Shown: positions 21,965 to 38,329 of the stretch, piece after piece
How the letters are laid out: every line of letters begins with the position of its first letter
Position numbering within the stretch: the stretch's first letter is position 1
NCBI RefSeq assembly: GCF_900182795.1
Contig: NZ_FXTX01000006.1
Location: 1-64,000 of the forward strand
DNA: 64,000 nt
From: Venenivibrio stagnispumantis
Lineage (GTDB): Bacteria; Aquificota; Aquificia; Aquificales; Hydrogenothermaceae
Direction: 5' to 3'
Translations under genes and position numbers: made by a program
Notes under the pieces: generated by a model
Database searches by the model: none
What the model was told of the DNA's origin: nothing
What the model saw: the letters and a program-made list of their open reading frames with translations, nothing else

Positions 21965-22566
21965 AAATATCCAATATATTAGAAGATGCAACAGATATAC
22001 TAAAAAAAGGTGGCATTGCAGTAATAAAAACAGACACATTATACGGCATTATAGCAGATGCAACAAATAAAGAAGCCGTAGAAAGAATATATCAAATTAA
22101 AAAAAGAGAGAAAGATAAGCCTTTTATAATACTTATTCCAGATATTTCTTTTATAAAACAATTTGGAATAAATATATCGGAAAAAGAAAAAGAGATATTA
22201 AATGAAAAAGGAATAACGGTAAAAATTGATTTACCAAAAGAAAAGTTAAAAGACCTAAAATATCTTCATAGAGGTAAAAATTCTTTAGCTTTTAGAATAC
22301 CGGATAAAGAAGATTTGATAGAGTTTTTATATAAACTGGAAAAACCAGTAGTTGCACCAAGTGCCAATATATCAGGAGAAGAGCCGGCAACAACCATAGA
22401 AGAAGCAATAAAAAGCCTCGGAGAGAATATAGATATTTATATAGACCAAGGAAAATCTAATACATTGCCATCAACTATTGTAAAAGTAAAACAAAATGGT
22501 AAAATAGAAATATTAAGACAAGGAAATAAAGAGATTAAATTAAATGAAAATAAAAGAAAGCTATGA
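21961..22566 (+). CDS. tsaC: Threonylcarbamoyl-AMP synthase, Sua5/YrdC/TsaC family
   Basis: Makes threonylcarbamoyl-AMP for t6A37 in tRNA. The 201 residues are a single YrdC domain (GGIAVIKTDTLYGIIAD, KKREKDKPFIILIP, APSANISGEEP) without the C-terminal Sua5 domain. It lies in a coupled run between panB and the potassium channel gene. Its 3' end overlaps trkH by 23 bases. Confidence 0.88.
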   Translation: MKISNILEDATDILKKGGIAVIKTDTLYGIIADATNKEAVERIYQIKKREKDKPFIILIPDISFIKQFGINISEKEKEILNEKGITVKIDLPKEKLKDLKYLHRGKNSLAFRIPDKEDLIEFLYKLEKPVVAPSANISGEEPATTIEEAIKSLGENIDIYIDQGKSNTLPSTIVKVKQNGKIEILRQGNKEIKLNENKRKL

Positions 22567-23911
22567 AAGGATAAAAAATAATTTTCAACTTTCACCGGTT
22601 CAGATTGTTTTAATATCATATATTGCCCTTATTCTAATAGGTAGCATTTTATTAAAATTACCAATTTCTACAACTAAGGATATATCATTTTTAGATGCTT
22701 TATTTACTGCAACATCTGCCACTACCGTAACAGGATTAATTGTTTTAGATACACCAAAAGATTTTACATTTTTTGGGCAAATTATTATTTTATTACTTAT
22801 CCAAATTGGTGGTCTTGGATATATGACGATGACAACATTTTTCTTATTAATGCTTAGAAAAAAAGCTTCTATAAAAGAAAGAATGATATTAGCAGAATCG
22901 TTAAATTATCCGGGAATTGCTGGAGTGGTAAGATTTTTAAAAAGAGTTTTTTCAATTGTAATTATTATTGAAATAATAGGAGCTTTTGCACTACTGATAG
23001 ATTTTATAAAAGAATATCCTTTAGAAAAGGCTGTTTATCTTAGTATTTTTCATTCTATATCTGCATTTAATAATGCCGGATTTTCTTTATTTTCTGATAA
23101 TCTTATGAAATATAAATCAGATATTTATCTAAATTTTGTAATAGCTATCTTAATTATAGTTGGTGGTATTGGATTTTATGTTATAACAGAATTAATTCTT
23201 TATTTTAAAAAAGAGATAACAAGAATAAGCACCCATACAAAAATTGTAATATATTTTTCATTATTCTTAATAGTATGGGGTGCTATTAGTATATTAATAT
23301 CGGAATTTAATCATTATAAAGGTTTATGGAGTTATAATTGGTCTGACAGAATTATTATATCGTTATTTACCAGTGTATCTTCAAGAACTGCAGGGTTTAA
23401 CACAATAGATTTTTCAATATTATCAGAATCAACTTTATTTATAATTATTATTTTGATGTTTATAGGAGCTTCACCGGGTGGAACTGGAGGTGGAGTAAAG
23501 ACCATAACAGTATCTGTAGTTGGCTTAGCTATCTTAAATTATCTAAAAGGTAAAAAAGATGTAAATGTATTCAAAAGAAGAATAAATCCAAATATTATTT
23601 ATAAAGCTATGGTTATTCTTGCTTTGGCATTTTTATATAACACGTTAATAACATTAACAATAGTTAGAGTTGAAGAAAAACCTTTTATTGCTTCTTTATT
23701 TGAGGTTGTTTCTGCTTTTTCAACAGTTGGTCTATCTGTAGGTTTGCCAAATGGATTAAGTTTAAGTGCAGATTTTTCACCTTTTGGAAAGATATTAATA
23801 ATTTTAACAATGATAGTAGGTAGAGTAGGAATACTTGGATTTGCATTAGCATTATCAGGAAAACAAAAAGAAAGTTATATCAAATATCCGGAAGCGAGGA
23901 TAGTGTTATGA
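22544..23911 (+). CDS. TrkH/KtrB-type potassium channel subunit
   Basis: A 455-residue membrane protein with four M1-P-M2 repeats. Selectivity-filter-like segments are TSATTVTGL, SAFNNAGFSL, SSRTAGFNT and SAFSTVGLSVG. It should work with the TrkA/KtrA protein encoded 4 bases upstream of its stop. The size and single regulatory gene fit a Ktr-like rather than E. coli Trk system. Confidence 0.9.
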   Translation: MKIKESYERIKNNFQLSPVQIVLISYIALILIGSILLKLPISTTKDISFLDALFTATSATTVTGLIVLDTPKDFTFFGQIIILLLIQIGGLGYMTMTTFFLLMLRKKASIKERMILAESLNYPGIAGVVRFLKRVFSIVIIIEIIGAFALLIDFIKEYPLEKAVYLSIFHSISAFNNAGFSLFSDNLMKYKSDIYLNFVIAILIIVGGIGFYVITELILYFKKEITRISTHTKIVIYFSLFLIVWGAISILISEFNHYKGLWSYNWSDRIIISLFTSVSSRTAGFNTIDFSILSESTLFIIIILMFIGASPGGTGGGVKTITVSVVGLAILNYLKGKKDVNVFKRRINPNIIYKAMVILALAFLYNTLITLTIVRVEEKPFIASLFEVVSAFSTVGLSVGLPNGLSLSADFSPFGKILIILTMIVGRVGILGFALALSGKQKESYIKYPEARIVL

Positions 23912-24558
23912 AAGAAAAAAGAATATTTGCGGTAATAGGTTTAGGTAAATTTGGTTTTCATGTGGCAAAAACTTTGGCAGAAAGGGGAATGGAAGTTATA
24001 GCCATAGATAAGGATGAAGATAGGGTTAAAGAGGTTTCAGAATTTGTAACTCAAACTTATATTCTTGATGCTACAGATGAAAAAGCTTTAAGAGAATCTG
24101 GTATAAAAGCAGTAGATGTTGCAGTTGTTAGTGTAGGTGAAAATTTGGAAGCAAATCTAATGATAGTGATGTTGTTAAATGAGCTTGGAATAAAAGAAAT
24201 AGTAGCAAAAGCTATTAATCCTCTTCATGGAAAAATGTTAGAAAAACTAAATGTATCAAGAGTTATATATCCTGAAATGGAAACAGCTATAAGAGTAGCA
24301 AATTCATTGATAGCAAAGGAAATAATTGAAGAAATTTATTTAACAGAAAATTACAGCATATTTGAAATAAAAGTTCCCCAATTTATGGTAGGTAAAACTT
24401 TAGCAGAGCTGGATTTAAGGAAAAAATATGATATTAATGTTTTGGGAGTTAAACGAGAAAACAGTGTTATTATAAATCCGGCTGGTGAATTTATGCTTCA
24501 AGATGGAGATATTTTAATAGTTTTAGGCAATATTAATAATGTTATGGATTTATTGTAA
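23908..24558 (+). CDS. TrkA/KtrA-type potassium channel regulator
   Basis: A 216-residue cytoplasmic gating ring subunit: an RCK_N Rossmann domain (FAVIGLGKFGFHVAKTLAERG, Asp in IDKDEDR) binding nucleotide and an RCK_C domain (about 140-216). The single pair of domains is the KtrA form. E. coli TrkA has two. The start overlaps the channel gene by 4 bases and kup starts 2 bases after its stop. Confidence 0.92.
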   Translation: MKEKRIFAVIGLGKFGFHVAKTLAERGMEVIAIDKDEDRVKEVSEFVTQTYILDATDEKALRESGIKAVDVAVVSVGENLEANLMIVMLLNELGIKEIVAKAINPLHGKMLEKLNVSRVIYPEMETAIRVANSLIAKEIIEEIYLTENYSIFEIKVPQFMVGKTLAELDLRKKYDINVLGVKRENSVIINPAGEFMLQDGDILIVLGNINNVMDLL

Positions 24559-24560
24559 AA

Positions 24561-26354
24561 ATGGATAAGGTAATAAAAGCTTTAGGAGCAGTTTTTGGAG
24601 ATATAGGAACAAGCCCAATCTATACATTTACCGTTTTATCATTATTTGTTAAGCCTACGAAGGAAAACATATTTGGCATTGTTTCATTAATATGTTGGAC
24701 TTTAGTTATTATAGTTACTATTCAATATGTTTTTCTTGCTATGAATTTAAGTAAAAGAGGGGAAGGCGGAATTATAGTTTTAAAAGAAATAGTAACTTCT
24801 TTGATTAAATCTTCAAGAATTTTAATATTTATAACTTTTTTATCATATGTAGGATTTTCTTTAATGCTTGGAGATAGCGTTATCACTCCGGCTATTTCTA
24901 TTTTATCTGCAGTAGAAGGATTACCTTTAATCTCTATTTTTTCCGGATTAGAAAGAATAGATTTAGTAGCTATTGCTATAATAATAACAACGGCTTTATT
25001 CTTTTTCCAAAAGTATGGAATAGAAAAAGTAGGACAATATTTTGGATATATAATGATTTTATGGTTTTTTGTACTTTTTATATCAGGTTTACAAGGTTTA
25101 TCTTTTTATCCGGAAATAATTGCATCAATAAATCCTGAATATGCTATAAACTTTATTTTAAATAATGGTTTTGCTTCTTTCCTTATTCTTTCTGATATTA
25201 TATTGGCAGCAACCGGTGGGGAAGCTTTATACGCTGATATGGGACATCTTGGTAGAGAGCCGATAGTAAAAGCTTGGAATTTTGTTTTTATTGCATTGTT
25301 GTTCAATTATTTAGGACAAGGAGCTTTCTTTATTTCACATTCTAATTCTAAAAATATATATTTTGATTTAATGAATACAGATTTTGGTATTTTTTATTCA
25401 GCCATTTTGATATTAACTATATTAGCCACAATTATAGCATCCCAAGCAACAATAAGTGCTTCTTTTTCTTTAATTTATCAGGGAATTATTACTGGAATTT
25501 TGCCAATGCTAAGAATTGTTCATACCTCTACAGAGCTAAAACCACAAATCTATATACCATCAGTTAATTGGCTTTTATTTATAACTATTTTAGTTGTATT
25601 AATAATCTTTCAATCTTCAGAAAATTTAGCTGCTGCTTATGGTTTTGCAGTATCCGGAACAATGACAATAACAGGTATTCTTTTGACAGTTATATATTTT
25701 ATGAAAAAATCTTATTTATATCTATTATTATCTATTTTTGTTTTTTGTGTAGATTTATCATTTTTTATTGCTAATTTTTCTAAAATAGAACATGGAGCAT
25801 ATATTACAATTATTATTGCTTGTTTTATTTTAGCTTTAATATTAATTTACAATTATGGAAAATATAGATTATCAAAGGCACTAAATTTAGTTGATATAAA
25901 TGAATATATTAAAGAATTTAAAGAGTTATACCAAAAATCTTCAAAAGTAGAAGGTTCTGCCATCTTCTTTGTTAAAGATATTCATAAAATTCCTCCTTAT
26001 ATAATAAATACTACATTAAAACAAAATATTATTTATCAAAAAAATATATTTTTATCCATAGGAAGTTTGGAGCAACCTTTTGGAAAGATAATATATAATT
26101 ACGGCGTTATTACAGATGGATTAGAAGCTATATCAATTAAAGTTGGATATATGGAAATATTAAAATTAGAAAAATTGTTAAGGGAAATTGGAATTAATGA
26201 AAAGGTTATATTTTTTGGAATAGAAGATATATTCTCAAATAATCCGTTGGGGAAAATATTTGCATTTATTAAAAGAAATACACCTTCCTTTGTACAATTT
26301 TATAATTTACCTATCCATAAAACCCATGGAGTTTTAACAAGAATAAAAATTTGA
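24561..26354 (+). CDS. kup: KUP-family potassium uptake permease
   Basis: A 597-residue K+/H+ symporter with about twelve membrane helices (1-430) and a soluble C-terminal part. The family start ALGAVFGDIGTSPIYTF, LSYVGFSLMLGDSVITPAIS and GGEALYADMGHLG are clear. It follows the Ktr-like pair directly, so two unrelated K+ importers share one transcript. The C-terminal domain ends FYNLPIHKTHGVLTRIKI as in bacterial Kup. Confidence 0.92.
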   Translation: MDKVIKALGAVFGDIGTSPIYTFTVLSLFVKPTKENIFGIVSLICWTLVIIVTIQYVFLAMNLSKRGEGGIIVLKEIVTSLIKSSRILIFITFLSYVGFSLMLGDSVITPAISILSAVEGLPLISIFSGLERIDLVAIAIIITTALFFFQKYGIEKVGQYFGYIMILWFFVLFISGLQGLSFYPEIIASINPEYAINFILNNGFASFLILSDIILAATGGEALYADMGHLGREPIVKAWNFVFIALLFNYLGQGAFFISHSNSKNIYFDLMNTDFGIFYSAILILTILATIIASQATISASFSLIYQGIITGILPMLRIVHTSTELKPQIYIPSVNWLLFITILVVLIIFQSSENLAAAYGFAVSGTMTITGILLTVIYFMKKSYLYLLLSIFVFCVDLSFFIANFSKIEHGAYITIIIACFILALILIYNYGKYRLSKALNLVDINEYIKEFKELYQKSSKVEGSAIFFVKDIHKIPPYIINTTLKQNIIYQKNIFLSIGSLEQPFGKIIYNYGVITDGLEAISIKVGYMEILKLEKLLREIGINEKVIFFGIEDIFSNNPLGKIFAFIKRNTPSFVQFYNLPIHKTHGVLTRIKI

Positions 26355-30454: not shown

Positions 30455-30697
30455 TTAAACTAAATTTTTATATTGAATTAACACTCTAGAGATATAAAAA
30501 CCTATTAAAAAAGCAATTATCCCAATTTTAAATAAATAAGCAACAAAAATAGAAATAACTGCAAAAACAAGAAACCTTTCAAAAAATTTTAGTTTATTTT
30601 TTCTTTTTAGAATAGCTTTTTTTACACTGTTATAAAGGTGAAGAAAATAAAATACCCCTGTAATAAACCCTAAGAAAAACAAAAATACAAAAGTCAT
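30455..30697 (-). CDS. atpR: AtpR-like N-ATPase accessory membrane subunit
   Basis: An 80-residue membrane protein with three helices: a glycine-rich first helix (FLGFITGVFYFLHLYN), then a KRKNK loop, a second helix beginning FERFLVF and a third with GFYISRVL. The lone arginines near or within helices 2 and 3 match the AtpR family, whose arginines are proposed to face the c-ring during assembly or Na+ specificity. It overlaps the antiporter stop by 4 bases and is the last gene of the ATPase operon. Elsewhere AtpR directly follows AtpQ. Here the antiporter separates them. The family call rests on pattern only. Confidence 0.6.
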   Translation of the reverse strand: MTFVFLFFLGFITGVFYFLHLYNSVKKAILKRKNKLKFFERFLVFAVISIFVAYLFKIGIIAFLIGFYISRVLIQYKNLV

Positions 30698-31923
30698 ACT
30701 TTTTTGGTGATTTCTTCTGCTTTTTTTAATGCAAATTCAGAAAATATAGGACCTAATATTTCATGTATAACTGTTGCACCTATTACAACATTAACTAATA
30801 TGAGACCAAAATCTTTAAACTCCGGATTTTGATAAGCAAGAAGTGAAAGACCTACAACTATACCACCCTGAGGGAAAAGGGAAAAAGCAAGATATTTTTT
30901 TATTTTTTCTGGAGCATTGGATATATGACCTCCTAAATATACACCTATAAACTTGCCGGTAAATCTTGCCAGAATGTAAATAACAACCCCAAGAGCATAT
31001 TCAAACAGAATTTTTATATCTAAGAATGCTGCTCCAACAACAAAAAATAATGTAAAAATAAAATCTTCTATATAATTTTCAAGAGGAGCTTTAAATCTTT
31101 CGTTTTCTTTATCAACATTAACAAGGGTTATTCCTGTAGTCATAGTAGAAAGAAGCTCATCTACCCCGATAGCATGGGCAATTGAAAATGTTATAAAAAG
31201 AATACCAATTGTAACTGTAACAACTTCTTTTCTTTCTTCTGCAAATTTTCCTAAAAAATGCATTAGATATCCCATTACAATTCCAAGTAAAACTGCCCCA
31301 AAAATCTGGAAACCTATCTGGTACCCAATATCAAGGATATTTATAGAACTTCCTTTTATTACGGTAAGTGCAATAGAAAAACCTATTACAAAATTTATAA
31401 TACCTGTTGCATCGTCTAAAGCAGCAACACCTAAGACGGTAGTTGTTAATGTGCCTTTTGCTTTAAACTCATGGATAACTTCTAAAGTAGCTGTTGGGTC
31501 TGTAGGAGAGGCTAAAGAACCAAATAAAAATGCCATTGCTATAAGGGTAGATGTTGTATAATCTCCGGTAAACATAAGATAGAGAAACATAATTAAGGTG
31601 ACAAATAAAAATGCTATTTCAGCTTCTCCTAAAGTTACAATTGTTATAACTTTCCCCAGTGATTTAACATTTTTCCAGGAAAGACTGGCTCCTATTAAGA
31701 ATGTAATTATAGATAAACTTGCATGTGTGATAACATCAGCTCTTTGGAGAAATTCTTTATCTATTATCCCAAGCAATGAAGGACTCATTATTATTCCGGC
31801 TAAAATATAACCGCTAACTCTTGGAAATTTAAATAAATTGGCAATATTTCCAAAAAGATAACCGATGATAAGAATTAGACCTATTTCAAATAAAGCTCCA
31901 CCTTCTTTTATTATGTTTTCCAT
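30694..31923 (-). CDS. Monovalent cation/proton antiporter inside the ATPase operon
   Basis: A 409-residue CPA-type exchanger with about 12-13 helices (PF00999 pattern). The ion site is SPTDPTATLEV with GVAALDDATGI: the Asp-Asp pair is typical of CPA2, often electrogenic, Na+(K+)/H+ antiporters such as NapA and GerN. There is no C-terminal RCK/TrkA-N domain. It starts 11 bases after the AtpQ-like gene and overlaps the AtpR-like gene by 4 bases, so it is translationally coupled to ATPase subunits. A role returning Na+ or H+ across the membrane in step with the ATPase is inferred. Confidence 0.85.
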   Translation of the reverse strand: MENIIKEGGALFEIGLILIIGYLFGNIANLFKFPRVSGYILAGIIMSPSLLGIIDKEFLQRADVITHASLSIITFLIGASLSWKNVKSLGKVITIVTLGEAEIAFLFVTLIMFLYLMFTGDYTTSTLIAMAFLFGSLASPTDPTATLEVIHEFKAKGTLTTTVLGVAALDDATGIINFVIGFSIALTVIKGSSINILDIGYQIGFQIFGAVLLGIVMGYLMHFLGKFAEERKEVVTVTIGILFITFSIAHAIGVDELLSTMTTGITLVNVDKENERFKAPLENYIEDFIFTLFFVVGAAFLDIKILFEYALGVVIYILARFTGKFIGVYLGGHISNAPEKIKKYLAFSLFPQGGIVVGLSLLAYQNPEFKDFGLILVNVVIGATVIHEILGPIFSEFALKKAEEITKKV

Positions 31924-31934
31924 TCTATAATCCC

Positions 31935-32201
31935 TTATTTAATTTCTTTTTTATAAAAAATCTGATAAATATTGTAAATTCCAATCATAATTCCAATTAA
32001 TATCCCTGTTATAGTCCATGATACTGTCCCTTCCCCTTTATATTTTCCATCTATCCACCAACCTATATATGCACCGACAACAACAGGTAAAATAAAGATT
32101 ATGCTTATACTTCCAATATAAGAAATCACAAAAAATATTCCTTTTTTCTCCCTTTTTTCAGCTTCTTCTATTTTTTTTCTAATTTCTTTGTAAAAATCCA
32201 T
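31935..32201 (-). CDS. atpQ: AtpQ/AtpI-like accessory membrane subunit
   Basis: An 88-residue protein with a charged N-terminal helix (KEIRKKIEEAEKREKK) and two membrane helices (about 23-48 and 60-83). This is the AtpI/AtpZ-type layout, called AtpQ in N-ATPase operons, proposed to help c-ring assembly or Mg2+ supply. It follows the epsilon gene with 1 base between, as atpQ follows atpC in canonical N-ATPase operons. Confidence 0.75.
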   Translation of the reverse strand: MDFYKEIRKKIEEAEKREKKGIFFVISYIGSISIIFILPVVVGAYIGWWIDGKYKGEGTVSWTITGILIGIMIGIYNIYQIFYKKEIK

Positions 32202-32202
32202 A

Positions 32203-34782
<2,580 letters not shown>

Positions 34783-34786
<4 letters not shown>

Positions 34787-36267
34787 AATTTTCCCACAAA
34801 TTCTTTTATTTTCTCTTTTATTTCTTTTGTTAAAACCTTTGAAGTTTTTATATCTGCTAAAATATAAGGATTTTTTTCTTTCACAGCTTTTAGAATAAAA
34901 TCTGCTCTGTCATTTACCTGCTCTTGGGGAATATTATCAAAGTATCCTTCATTTAAAAGGAAGAATATAACTATCATCTCTTCAACCTGATAAGGTTTTT
35001 GTTTTGGCTGTTTTAAAAGCTCTCTTAATCTTTTACCCCTTTTTATTATCTGTGCTGTTTCTCCAAATACTTTAACCCCGAGTTTTGTAAATATCTCAAC
35101 TTCAAGAAACTGTGTGTAGTACAACCTTAAAAATCTTGCAACCTCTTTTAATGCAGGTATCTGAGTTTTTCCTCCAATCCTTGAAACTGATATTCCAACA
35201 TCAACTGCAGGTCTTTGATTTATATTAAAAAGGTTTGTATCCAGATAAATCTGACCATCTGTAATTGATATAACATTTGTTGGGATATAGGAGGAAATTC
35301 TGCCGGCCTGAGTTTCAACTATTGGAAGAGCAGTAATTGAACCGCCATCTTTTATTTTGCAAGCCCTTTCAAGAAGTCTTGAGTGAATATAAAATATATC
35401 ACCGGGAAATGCTTCTCTTCCAGGTGGTCTTTTTAAAAGAAGTGATAAAGACTGGTAGGCAAAAGCATGTTTTGTTAAATCATCATAAATAATAAGAACG
35501 TCTTTGCCTTTATCTAGAAAATATTCTGCAATTGCCGTTGCTGAATAAGGAGCTAAAAATTGAAGTCCAAGGGGCTGGTCTGAAGATGCTGATACTATAA
35601 CTGTATAATCAAGCCCACCGTATTTTTTTAATGTAGAGTAAACATCAAGTATATTTTGTTTTCTCTGTCCTATTGCTGTATATACACATATTACATTTTT
35701 ATCTTTTTGATTTAAAATTGTATCAACAGCTATAGAGGTTTTCCCTACTCCTGGGTCTCCGAGGATAAGCTCCCTCTGTCCTTTTCCAATTGGAAACATA
35801 GTATCTATAACTTTTATACCTGTGTAAAGCTGTTCTTTAACAAAATCTCTATCAAATATTGCCGGTGCATCCCTTTCAACCGGATAATATGTGTGGGTTT
35901 TTATTTTTGGTTTTTCATCAAGGGGTTTTCCAAGGGGGTCTATTATTCTGCCTAAAAGTTCATCTGAAACACCTACAGACATTATATGCCCTGTTCTGTA
36001 TACAGGAGTGTTTATATTTACAGTTTTATTTTCAAGGATTATAGCCCTTACATATTTATCTGAAATATCAATGACTATTCCGTTTACATCATTTTCAAAC
36101 TTTAGAACCTCATAAAACATTGCATTTGGAAGTCCTCTAACAGAAGCTATGCCCTCTTCTATAGATTCAACAACCCCCTGTTCTTTTATTATTGGCTTTA
36201 TCTCAAATTCTTTTACAGCCTCTTTTAAACCTTTTTTTAAGTTTTCTATCTCTTCTTGTATTTTCAA
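34783..36267 (-). CDS. atpA: F-type ATPase alpha subunit, N-ATPase-like
   Basis: Non-catalytic hexamer subunit, 494 residues. The P-loop reads LILGDPGVGKTS (about 168-179) where typical alpha subunits have GDRQTGKT, so the residues before GKT differ. Other alpha blocks are present: GRIIDPLGKPLDE, YDDLTKHAFAYQSLSLLLKRPPGREAFPGDIFYIHSRLLERA and VGISVSRIGGKTQ. It overlaps the b-delta gene by 4 bases. Confidence 0.93.
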
Positions 36268-37016
36268 ACTTCTATCCTCTTTCTAAGTAATGTCTCAAAG
36301 GCTAACAGCTGTCCTTTAAGTGAAACATCAATTAATTTTGAGGCAATATGCAGTTTAACCCCTGTAACAAGGTCTTTTTTCTCTGTTTGATTGATTTCTA
36401 CTTCAACTCCTAAGGTTTCTTTAATGGCATTTTTTATATTTGAAATATCCTCATCCTCAAGAGGATATGCAGTTTCCACATAAACAACAGAGTGTTCTTT
36501 TAACTCCTGTGCAAGGTTGTCCCTCTCTTCAGGGTTTATATTTTTTATTCCTTCAACTGCAAGGTCTAAAAGTTTTTTATGTAAATGTTTATCTGTAAAG
36601 CTGTAAAGTATTTTTGATACCAGTTCAAGGGATGTTTTAATTGTTTCTTCTTTTATCTCTGTAAGGACTTCTTTTTTATGGGTTTCAAGGGATTCTAAAA
36701 ACTTTTCTCTTTCTGCATCAAGCTCTTTCCTCATATTCTCATACATTTTTTCCCTTTCTTTTTCTATTTCTTGGGTAATTTCAGCAAGTTTTGATTTTTT
36801 AGTTTCCTCTATTTCTTTTAGAAGTTCCTCATACTCTTTTTGAAGTCTTTGATATCTGCTTTCTGCTTCTTCTGCTTTTCTTATACTTTCATCTATATAA
36901 TCTTTTCTCTTTTTTAAAACTGAGATGATTGGGTTATAAAGTATTTTTTTTAAAATCCACATGAGTACAAAAAAGTTTATTATTTCAAAAAGATAGGTAA
37001 GAATATCTATTTTCAT
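36264..37016 (-). CDS. atpF: F-type ATPase b subunit with delta-like C-terminal domain
   Basis: A 250-residue peripheral stalk subunit. One N-terminal membrane helix (about 8-30), a long charged coiled coil (about 35-140) and a C-terminal domain (about 150-250) resembling AtpH: LGVEVEINQTEKKDLVTGVKLHIASKLIDVSLKGQL is the usual delta end. Ordinary b subunits have about 160 residues. No separate atpH is in the operon, so this fusion supplies both parts, as in N-ATPases. It starts 7 bases after the c gene. Confidence 0.85.
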   Translation of the reverse strand: MKIDILTYLFEIINFFVLMWILKKILYNPIISVLKKRKDYIDESIRKAEEAESRYQRLQKEYEELLKEIEETKKSKLAEITQEIEKEREKMYENMRKELDAEREKFLESLETHKKEVLTEIKEETIKTSLELVSKILYSFTDKHLHKKLLDLAVEGIKNINPEERDNLAQELKEHSVVYVETAYPLEDEDISNIKNAIKETLGVEVEINQTEKKDLVTGVKLHIASKLIDVSLKGQLLAFETLLRKRIEV

Positions 37017-37023
37017 TTATCAC

Positions 37024-37290
37024 CTATTTTGTAAAAAGATGTATAAATGGATTTGCAAATAAGATAATTAAAGCTATAACAAGAGAGTAAATCGCAACAG
37101 ACTCAACAACTGCAGCACCTATGAAAAACAATCTTATTATTGTGTTAGCCTGTTCAGGCTGTCTTGCAACAGATTCTATTGCTTTTGTTAATGCTTCACC
37201 TTCTCCCTTTGAAGGCATCATTCCACCTATTGCTACTGTAAATCCTGCTGTAAAAATTGAAACTGCTACTACAATTGTAAGTGCGTCCAT
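37024..37290 (-). CDS. atpE: F-type ATPase c subunit with a glutamate in each helix
   Basis: An 88-residue hairpin. The outer helix carries the essential Glu63 within VVESVAIYSLVIALIILFANPF, closely matching the Na+-type Ilyobacter c subunit (AESTGIYSLVIAL), with Ser64 and Tyr68 kept and the Thr replaced by Val65. The inner helix has Glu30 (KGEGEAL) where Ilyobacter has Gln32. Two carboxylates per subunit is a feature of N-ATPase c-rings. The ESVARQPE loop is intact. It follows subunit a by 14 bases. Confidence 0.92.
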   Translation of the reverse strand: MDALTIVVAVSIFTAGFTVAIGGMMPSKGEGEALTKAIESVARQPEQANTIIRLFFIGAAVVESVAIYSLVIALIILFANPFIHLFTK

Positions 37291-37304
37291 TTAAAACCCT
37301 CCTT

Positions 37305-38057
37305 TTATAGGTCATACCAGTTTTCTTTTAAATATAATAACTTTTTGTGTAACTCTTCAACCTTTAAACCTGCAACAATATATGCAAGTGTCAGTACGCC
37401 AAATAAGTAAGTCTGTATTAAATCACCAACTATGTTAAAAAGCATCATAGGAACTGGAACTAAAATTCCTGTAAGTAAAACAAGTATTGCTATTATTAAA
37501 TCCCATCCAAGCATATTACCAAAGAGTCTGAAGGTAAGGGATATAATTCTTCCAATTTCTCCTATTATATTTAAAGGAAACAGGATAAAAATAGGCTCAA
37601 AAAATCTTTTTAAATATGAAAATCCATGAAATTTTATTCCGTAATAAAAAACAGAAAAAAATGTTATTGTTGAAAGTCCTACAACAGCTGAAAGATTTCC
37701 TGTAGGTGTATGAGAACCCGGAACCATACCCATAAGATTTGAAAAAGCAACAAATATCCACATTGTTGCTATAAGATTAAAAAATGGAGATACAGGCATA
37801 TTAGAAAAGTCTCTGATTTGCCTTGCCATAGCAACAATAACAGTTTCTATAAGAACCTGCCTTATTGATGGATTTTTTATTTTTAGATTTCTTGTGAAGA
37901 AAAGAGATAAGATAATAACCACTGCCATTGCAATCCATGTAGTAACAACAACATCTGTAAGAACAAGATGAATTTTTAGATTTCCAATCTGAACATAACC
38001 AAAATCAACAAGCTCTTTTGTGAAAACTTTTTCCACGCCCATAATTCCCCAAAACAT
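37305..38057 (-). CDS. atpB: F-type ATPase a subunit
   Basis: Ion-channel stator subunit, 250 residues, about six helices. The essential arginine is in SLTFRLFGNMLGW (about residue 172), with helix-5 glutamates in NIIGEIGRI. The ATG at 38057 has a seven-G run 10 bases upstream. An in-frame ATG at 38042 is an alternative with GGGG only 4 bases away. It is the first gene of the operon, immediately after element L2, whose promoter at 38227-38255 could drive the operon. Confidence 0.9.
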   Translation of the reverse strand: MFWGIMGVEKVFTKELVDFGYVQIGNLKIHLVLTDVVVTTWIAMAVVIILSLFFTRNLKIKNPSIRQVLIETVIVAMARQIRDFSNMPVSPFFNLIATMWIFVAFSNLMGMVPGSHTPTGNLSAVVGLSTITFFSVFYYGIKFHGFSYLKRFFEPIFILFPLNIIGEIGRIISLTFRLFGNMLGWDLIIAILVLLTGILVPVPMMLFNIVGDLIQTYLFGVLTLAYIVAGLKVEELHKKLLYLKENWYDL

Positions 38058-38068
38058 AGAAAACTATC

Positions 38069-38220
38069 CCCCCCACCCATCTTTGGTTTGGAATTACTGA
38101 TGTAACCCCTATAATATGGAGTGATTAAGTTTCCAAGAGAACTTCTCCTGAAGATATTCCTTGCTTTATTATTACCAAAGTGTCTATATTTATATGCTTC
38201 TATTATTTTCTCATTCATAA
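38069..38220 (-). ncRNA. Element L2, shortened relative of L1, leader of the ATPase operon
   Basis: On the minus strand it has the same order of parts as L1 at 121-380: a promoter, a block equal in 23 of 28 bases to 188-215 (here 38162-38135), then the 3' block where 38120-38085 matches about 30 of 36 bases of 329-364, including GTAATTCCAAACC. About 100 bases between the two blocks of L1 are missing. CTTTGGT (about 38176-38182) can pair with ACCAAAG (38080-38086), so L2 also has a closing stem at the same place as L1 but made of different bases. A chance frame runs through it. L1 and L2 are clearly related; whether L2 is an active RNA, a leader or a relic is open. Confidence 0.5.
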
Positions 38221-38226
38221 TATATA

Positions 38227-38255
38227 AATATAAAGCTTTTTAGAGTATTTGTAAA
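38227..38255 (-). promoter_or_regulatory. Promoter of L2 and probably of the ATPase operon
   Basis: Minus strand: TTTACA (38255-38250), 17 bases, TATATT (38232-38227). The upstream 38274-38254 matches 20 of 21 bases of 121-141. The remaining bases to 38329 should hold the divergent pyk promoter. I see no clear one. Confidence 0.6.
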
Positions 38256-38329
38256 GATATATTTATTAACAACTACAATCTCTTAACTAATATGATAAAA
38301 TTTGATAAAAATTAAGAGGTGGGACAAAT

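Follow-up and report, generated by a model that had tools for sequence, protein, structure and literature searches.

A variant N-type rotary ATPase operon in Venenivibrio stagnispumantis with an antiporter gene next to atpR

The operon and its gene junctions

The DNA analyzed in this study is a stretch of 64,000 nucleotides (nt) from Venenivibrio stagnispumantis (Aquificota, Hydrogenothermaceae; contig NZ_FXTX01000006.1, positions 1 to 64,000), referred to as the window. On its minus strand, from 38057 down to 30455, ten intact open reading frames (ORFs) encode a rotary ATPase of the N-type (N-ATPase) and an antiporter in the order a, c, fused b-delta, alpha, gamma, beta, epsilon, Q, antiporter, R. 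This order had been given by an earlier sequence-only reading, and all ten gene assignments exceeded the Pfam cut-offs in the profile search. Comparison with related genomes revealed that the antiporter gene beside atpR is a clade-wide trait of the N-ATPase operon in the Aquificota. The features of the locus are as follows.

37305..38057, minus strand: subunit a (atpB); PF00119 128 bits; N-type models score above F-type models; RLFGN arginine motif kept
37024..37290, minus strand: subunit c (atpE), a two-glutamate rotor subunit with GEG ... ESVAIY; PF00137; alternate-type model 97 versus F-type 63 bits; alignment
36264..37016, minus strand: fused b-delta (atpF of the N-type); PF00430 and PF00213 in a single protein; TIGR03321 145 bits
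34783..36267, minus strand: alpha (atpA) with TTG start; PF00006, PF00306; outside the F-type clade
33956..34786, minus strand: gamma (atpG); PF00231 191 bits
32592..33959, minus strand: beta (atpD); PF00006 234 bits; outside the F-type clade
32203..32595, minus strand: epsilon (atpC); PF02823 45 bits; alternate epsilon TIGR03166 57 versus TIGR01216 44 bits
31935..32201, minus strand: AtpQ-type small membrane protein (AtpZ/ATPase_gene1); PF09527 52.5 bits, cut-off 26.6
30694..31923, minus strand: Na+/H+ exchanger-family (CPA superfamily) antiporter, 409 residues; PF00999 117 bits, cut-off 26.2; AlphaFold2 model; AtpR-adjacent orthologues in Aquificota
30455..30697, minus strand: AtpR, 80 residues, 4-nt overlap with the antiporter; PF12966 44.1 bits, cut-off 26
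38058..38329, minus strand: intergenic region before the divergent pyruvate kinase gene; candidate promoter hexamers 38255-38227, from a consensus scan alone

Overlaps of 4 nt, which the sequence-only reading had also reported, were read at the b-delta/alpha, alpha/gamma, gamma/beta, beta/epsilon and antiporter/R junctions. At the remaining junctions the genes lie 14 (a-c), 7 (c-b), 1 (epsilon-Q) and 11 nt (Q-antiporter) apart, and a scan of the minus strand found no terminator-like sites between the operon genes. Overlaps, spacings no wider than 14 nt and the lack of an internal terminator-like site are consistent with a single transcript from a to R, which we infer for the ten genes. The operon promoter is likely located in 38058..38329. 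The number of promoter consensus sites in this region was not above that in shuffled sequences, and the promoter and terminator scans were uninformative overall. Translation of subunit a probably starts at 38042 and not at 38057, because MGVEKVF is the N-terminus in most relatives. Another ORF of 80 residues (37976-38218, minus strand) begins just past the candidate promoter and overlaps the start of the a gene. It is probably spurious, possibly a leader.

N-type identity of the ATPase

On subunit content and protein sequences, the ATPase of the window is a deep-branching N-type enzyme that is additional to the housekeeping F-ATPase. The AtpQ-type protein, AtpR and the fused b-delta protein are all present, and the operon lacks a separate delta gene. 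Q and R had previously been assigned by pattern. Both assignments held in the profile check against PF09527 and PF12966, and AtpR passed this Pfam model while reaching only 17.9 bits with the narrower NCBI model TIGR03165 (cut-off 55.5). Classical AtpR has two conserved arginines that face the c subunit. The window protein keeps the one in the last helix (GF...SR/AR), and the alignment puts the other roughly one helical turn before its classical position. The c subunit carries two glutamates, one within the GEG of helix 1 and one within the ES of helix 2. The second atp set that had been anticipated was found scattered over contigs C4 (b'-b-delta-alpha-gamma-beta) and C2 (a and c), and its c subunit is of the one-carboxylate type.

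NCBIfam models clearly favoured the N-type over the F-type for the Fo subunits a (155 versus 87 bits), c (97 versus 63) and b-delta (145 versus 62), and epsilon leaned in this direction too (57 versus 44). Alpha and gamma scored nearly equally with both types, beta scores favoured the F-type, and all subunits stayed under the strict N-type cut-offs of NCBI. In trees the alpha and beta subunits of the Aquificota N-ATPases form their own clade (support 100/100) outside the F-type clade (100/100) that contains the housekeeping alpha and beta of this genome. Neither of the refuting conditions named in the sequence-only reading was thus borne out: alpha and beta do not group with the housekeeping enzyme, further atp genes exist in the genome, and the protein of 80 residues gives a genuine AtpR signal. 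The link of this deep clade to the classical N-type is weak. An ordinary F-ATPase operon mistaken for an N-type might be suspected from the F-type models, which match alpha, beta and gamma about equally or better, and from the unmet strict cut-offs, but it is contradicted by the subunit inventory with its N-type Fo scores, fused b-delta, Q and R, by the alpha/beta trees and by the housekeeping set elsewhere in the genome, and we consider it extremely improbable.

Classical N-ATPase operons (atpDCQRBEFAG), as on plasmid pAQ7 of Picosynechococcus PCC 7002 and in Burkholderia pseudomallei, share with the window the same subunits, the two-glutamate c subunit, the fused b-delta protein and the existence beside a housekeeping ATPase. 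In contrast, the window has a rotated order and an antiporter beside R, and its alpha and beta subunits, which are 43-52% identical to those of the classical N-type, constitute a deep branch of their own. The published order is IB-IE-I-R-0A-0C-0B-IA-IG, i.e. beta-epsilon-Q-R-a-c-b-alpha-gamma (PMC4154653). As a linear order it is not found in the window. It matches only when read as a circle, with the antiporter added between Q and R, and the circular permutation described earlier is thus, antiporter aside, a rotation of the published order. Gene order is a diagnostic habit, and we give more weight to which subunits are present and to their sequences; we therefore file the operon under the N-type and call it a variant.

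The antiporter gene beside atpR

A search of 136 Aquificota genomes detected AtpR among N-ATPase genes in seven: the window genome, G002, G004, G020, G036, G075 and G078. The N-type alpha subunit was recovered in six of these, the operon of G078 being interrupted by a contig end. In all seven an orthologous antiporter gene lies immediately upstream of atpR. The two genes overlap by 4 nt in six of these genomes and are 1 nt apart in G078. The relatives thus rule out a one-off insertion in the window genome. The full order antiporter-R-a-c-bdelta-alpha-gamma-beta-epsilon-Q was found in G002, G004 and G020, and the other three relatives agree with it up to their contig limits. Hence, the antiporter-R pair comes last only in the window genome and first wherever the order of the relatives is readable. 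The window order, the relatives' order and the classical order are three rotations of one circle, and the simplest route between them would be for the operon to duplicate in tandem and for each copy then to lose the parts kept by the other. The alpha subunits of these operons are 70-80% identical to that of the window. Within the same family identity to the window is 72-74% for the antiporter, 77-78% for a, 63-70% for gamma and 57-60% for b-delta, so that the antiporter is conserved on a par with several ATPase subunits. In the antiporter tree, operon copies are interleaved with orthologues that stand alone; unless this tree lacks precision, the gene has departed from or entered the operon several times.

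In addition to the operon antiporter, G075, a metagenome-assembled genome (MAG) of the Aquificaceae, contains a paralogue that stands alone and a further antiporter-R-a fragment (L151, L156, L110), which could reflect a duplicated operon or a bin of mixed origin. Weak AtpR-family matches of 20-31 bits in other Aquificota were rejected as N-ATPases, with a prepilin peptidase-like neighbour wherever neighbours were read. They represent stand-alone small membrane proteins encoded without ATPase genes (L012, L013, L014). The window genome also has such a stand-alone AtpR-family protein near a prepilin peptidase-like gene (contig C10, 43641-43865; L074 3627-3938). Directly upstream of such a stand-alone gene a Kef-like antiporter is encoded in G018 and G023, and probably also in G029.

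Outside the phylum, 16 plasmid-borne N-ATPase operons had a readable layout, two of them unannotated and judged from gene spacing. The sole case with an antiporter is pMB02 of Acaryochloris sp. 'Moss Beach' (L135), with the order beta-epsilon-Q-antiporter-R-a-c-b-alpha-gamma. As in the window, an exchanger-family antiporter gene is placed between Q and R and overlaps the latter by 4 nt. The two operons differ in that the Acaryochloris operon follows the classical order, has an alpha gene that is spread over three frames as deposited, and encodes a NapA-like antiporter. In a quick tree with long branches this antiporter is split from the Aquificota antiporters by a 100% branch, and direct BLAST gave 23% identity across half the length. 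A common origin of both antiporters as an operon gene is therefore unsupported. Since they belong to different lineages, the Q-R slot was apparently filled twice, independently. Given about ten possible slots, the coincidence is suggestive and, taken alone, not strong. The sequence-only reading had called for a survey of N-ATPase operons for an antiporter gene between atpQ and atpR. An antiporter beside AtpR was found in all seven Aquificota genomes with the N-ATPase and in the Q-R slot of Acaryochloris, and none in the other 15 plasmid operons. Searching plasmids with the window antiporter itself yielded weak matches only, and no N-ATPase operon was found in the available flanking sequence of its distant relatives in Bacteroidota, Planctomycetota and other phyla.

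The antiporter had been labelled as CPA2-type. An exchanger-family protein is indeed in place between Q and R, but the CPA2 label lacks confidence: motif and predicted fold appear mixed between CPA1 and CPA2. The AlphaFold2 model (predicted local distance difference test, pLDDT, 88) resembled NapA (CPA2) as well as PaNhaP and MjNhaP1 (CPA1), with TM-scores of about 0.75. The closest sequences with solved structures were NHE6, NhaP and SOS1, and the top NCBI model was of CPA2 with a score far under its cut-off. The motif consists of PTDP on transmembrane helix (TM) 4, no glutamate at position 5, Asp-Asp at positions 6-7, and either the invariant Arg320 or Lys324 at position 8. CPA2 is characterized by the absence of a Glu5 paired with Arg8, and its electrogenic members by Asp6, Asp7 and Lys8, whereas PTDP on TM4 marks Na+-selective NhaP-I/NHE proteins and arginine combined with Asp-Asp occurs in electroneutral NHA proteins (PMC6181914). 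Electrogenic exchange would thus be predicted if position 8 is Lys324; with arginine the combination would match that of the electroneutral NHA proteins. NapA, PaNhaP and MjNhaP1 share the NhaA-type fold with the window antiporter, NapA additionally the Asp-Asp on TM5, and NhaP-I/NHE proteins the PTDP on TM4. At about 20% identity they differ from it in that the window antiporter mixes CPA1 and CPA2 motifs with an ambiguous position 8.

Several observations lie beside these comparisons. Some plasmid N-ATPase operons look damaged: in addition to the three-frame alpha gene of pMB02 (L135 10016-11421), alpha is seemingly split in Croceicoccus pCME4A9II (L182 12048-14371), and Methylophaga (L181 9001-9774) gave a beta match alone without annotated neighbours. 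In MAGs of Chloroflexota, Delongbacteria and Phycisphaerales (L098, L101, L102) two antiporter relatives lie close together on one contig and are perhaps paired transporters. The window operon is flanked by the divergent pyruvate kinase gene and a convergent mutS. About 4 kb away, at 22544-26354 on the opposite strand, ORFs judged by eye to be TrkH-like, TrkA-like and Kup-like form a K+ transport cluster.

Coupling ion and proposed function

The coupling ion of the window ATPase is predicted to be Na+, which we favour over H+. According to the alignment, the c subunit retains E32, V63, E65, S66 and Y70 of the Na+ site of Fusobacterium nucleatum. These residues comprise the direct Na+ ligands and the locking tyrosine of the ring of this organism, whose Thr67 holds a bound water (PMC3692424). 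The Na+-ligating Ser66 is kept in the window and replaced by threonine in B. pseudomallei. We count these residues and the PTDP motif of the antiporter in favour of a Na+-based system.

With slightly better than even confidence, we interpret the locus as a second, clade-specific N-type rotary ATPase operon with an AtpR-paired antiporter, in which an ATP-driven pump and Na+/H+ exchange would serve salt and pH homeostasis. Beside the housekeeping F-ATPase the N-ATPase would most likely act as an ATP-driven ion pump, presumably for Na+. Probably translated from the shared transcript, the antiporter would exchange Na+ for H+ over the same membrane. Together they could expel Na+ at the expense of either ATP or the proton gradient and interconvert Na+ and H+ gradients. 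Ion, pumping direction and joint function are here deduced from sequence. The pairing of antiporter and AtpR in every N-ATPase-bearing related genome suggests that two ion machines cooperate in salt and pH balance, and the case for such coupling is strengthened by the conservation in seven genomes and the apparently independent case in Acaryochloris.

Some findings weigh against this interpretation. In the c subunit valine replaces Thr67 of the F. nucleatum site, and the two-glutamate ring of B. pseudomallei, with Glu-Thr-Met at the site, bound H+ and not Na+ (PMC5376962). Six Aquificaceae genomes carry a stand-alone orthologue of the antiporter; one of them, G075, has an operon copy as well. 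Hence, the antiporter can presumably work without an N-ATPase. Moreover, 15 of the 16 plasmid N-ATPase operons have no antiporter, and two Na+-exporting proteins may be merely co-regulated without being coupled.

The B. pseudomallei ring and the exchange of Thr67 for a non-polar residue, common to both c subunits, would also fit an N-ATPase that exports H+ with ATP while the antiporter spends these protons on expelling Na+, comparable to the vacuolar proton pump and NHX exchanger. The direct ligand Ser66, retained in the window and lost in B. pseudomallei, speaks against this, and we regard an H+ pump as unlikely, even if it leads the alternatives. Next follows the doubtful view of the antiporter as a passenger, an ion-homeostasis gene placed in the operon because shared regulation is convenient, and not functionally coupled to the N-ATPase. 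It accommodates the stand-alone orthologues and the mostly antiporter-free operons elsewhere. However, the pair was retained in seven of seven Aquificota N-ATPase genomes and through an operon rearrangement, which argues against a mere passenger, and in Acaryochloris this slot holds an antiporter of an unrelated lineage.

Less probable again is Na+-driven ATP synthesis, in which the antiporter would turn the respiratory proton gradient into a Na+ gradient and the N-ATPase would act as synthase on the returning Na+. The retained Na+ ligands of the c subunit and the predicted Na+ selectivity of the antiporter would agree with it, but the genome already encodes an F-type ATP synthase, and N-ATPases have been treated as ATP-driven pumps (PMC7784846, PMC5376962). 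At the speculative end of the pump and exchanger interpretation, and improbable to a still greater degree, AtpR might physically join the antiporter to the N-ATPase, making ATP hydrolysis and Na+/H+ exchange one membrane unit with an interface that recruited two unrelated antiporter lineages. Such recruitment would account for both antiporters directly preceding AtpR.

N-ATPases in Aquificota are already known, as noted in a passage of PMC9927469 that cites the 2010 N-ATPase paper. An operon variant with a built-in antiporter is apparently new: no earlier description was found in the literature searched, which excluded the founding 2010 N-ATPase paper and the Aphanothece paper. Priority is thus not certain, also because PMC8949462 includes a map of the Acaryochloris operon. 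The locus provides a clean example of a rotary ATPase operon existing in several circular permutations. What N-ATPases do in the cell, which ion they transport and what AtpR is for are standing questions on which the antiporter-AtpR pairing bears. An antiporter that is conserved beside AtpR, and was apparently recruited there twice, leads to the testable hypothesis that N-ATPase and Na+/H+ exchange cooperate, with AtpR close to the point where they connect.

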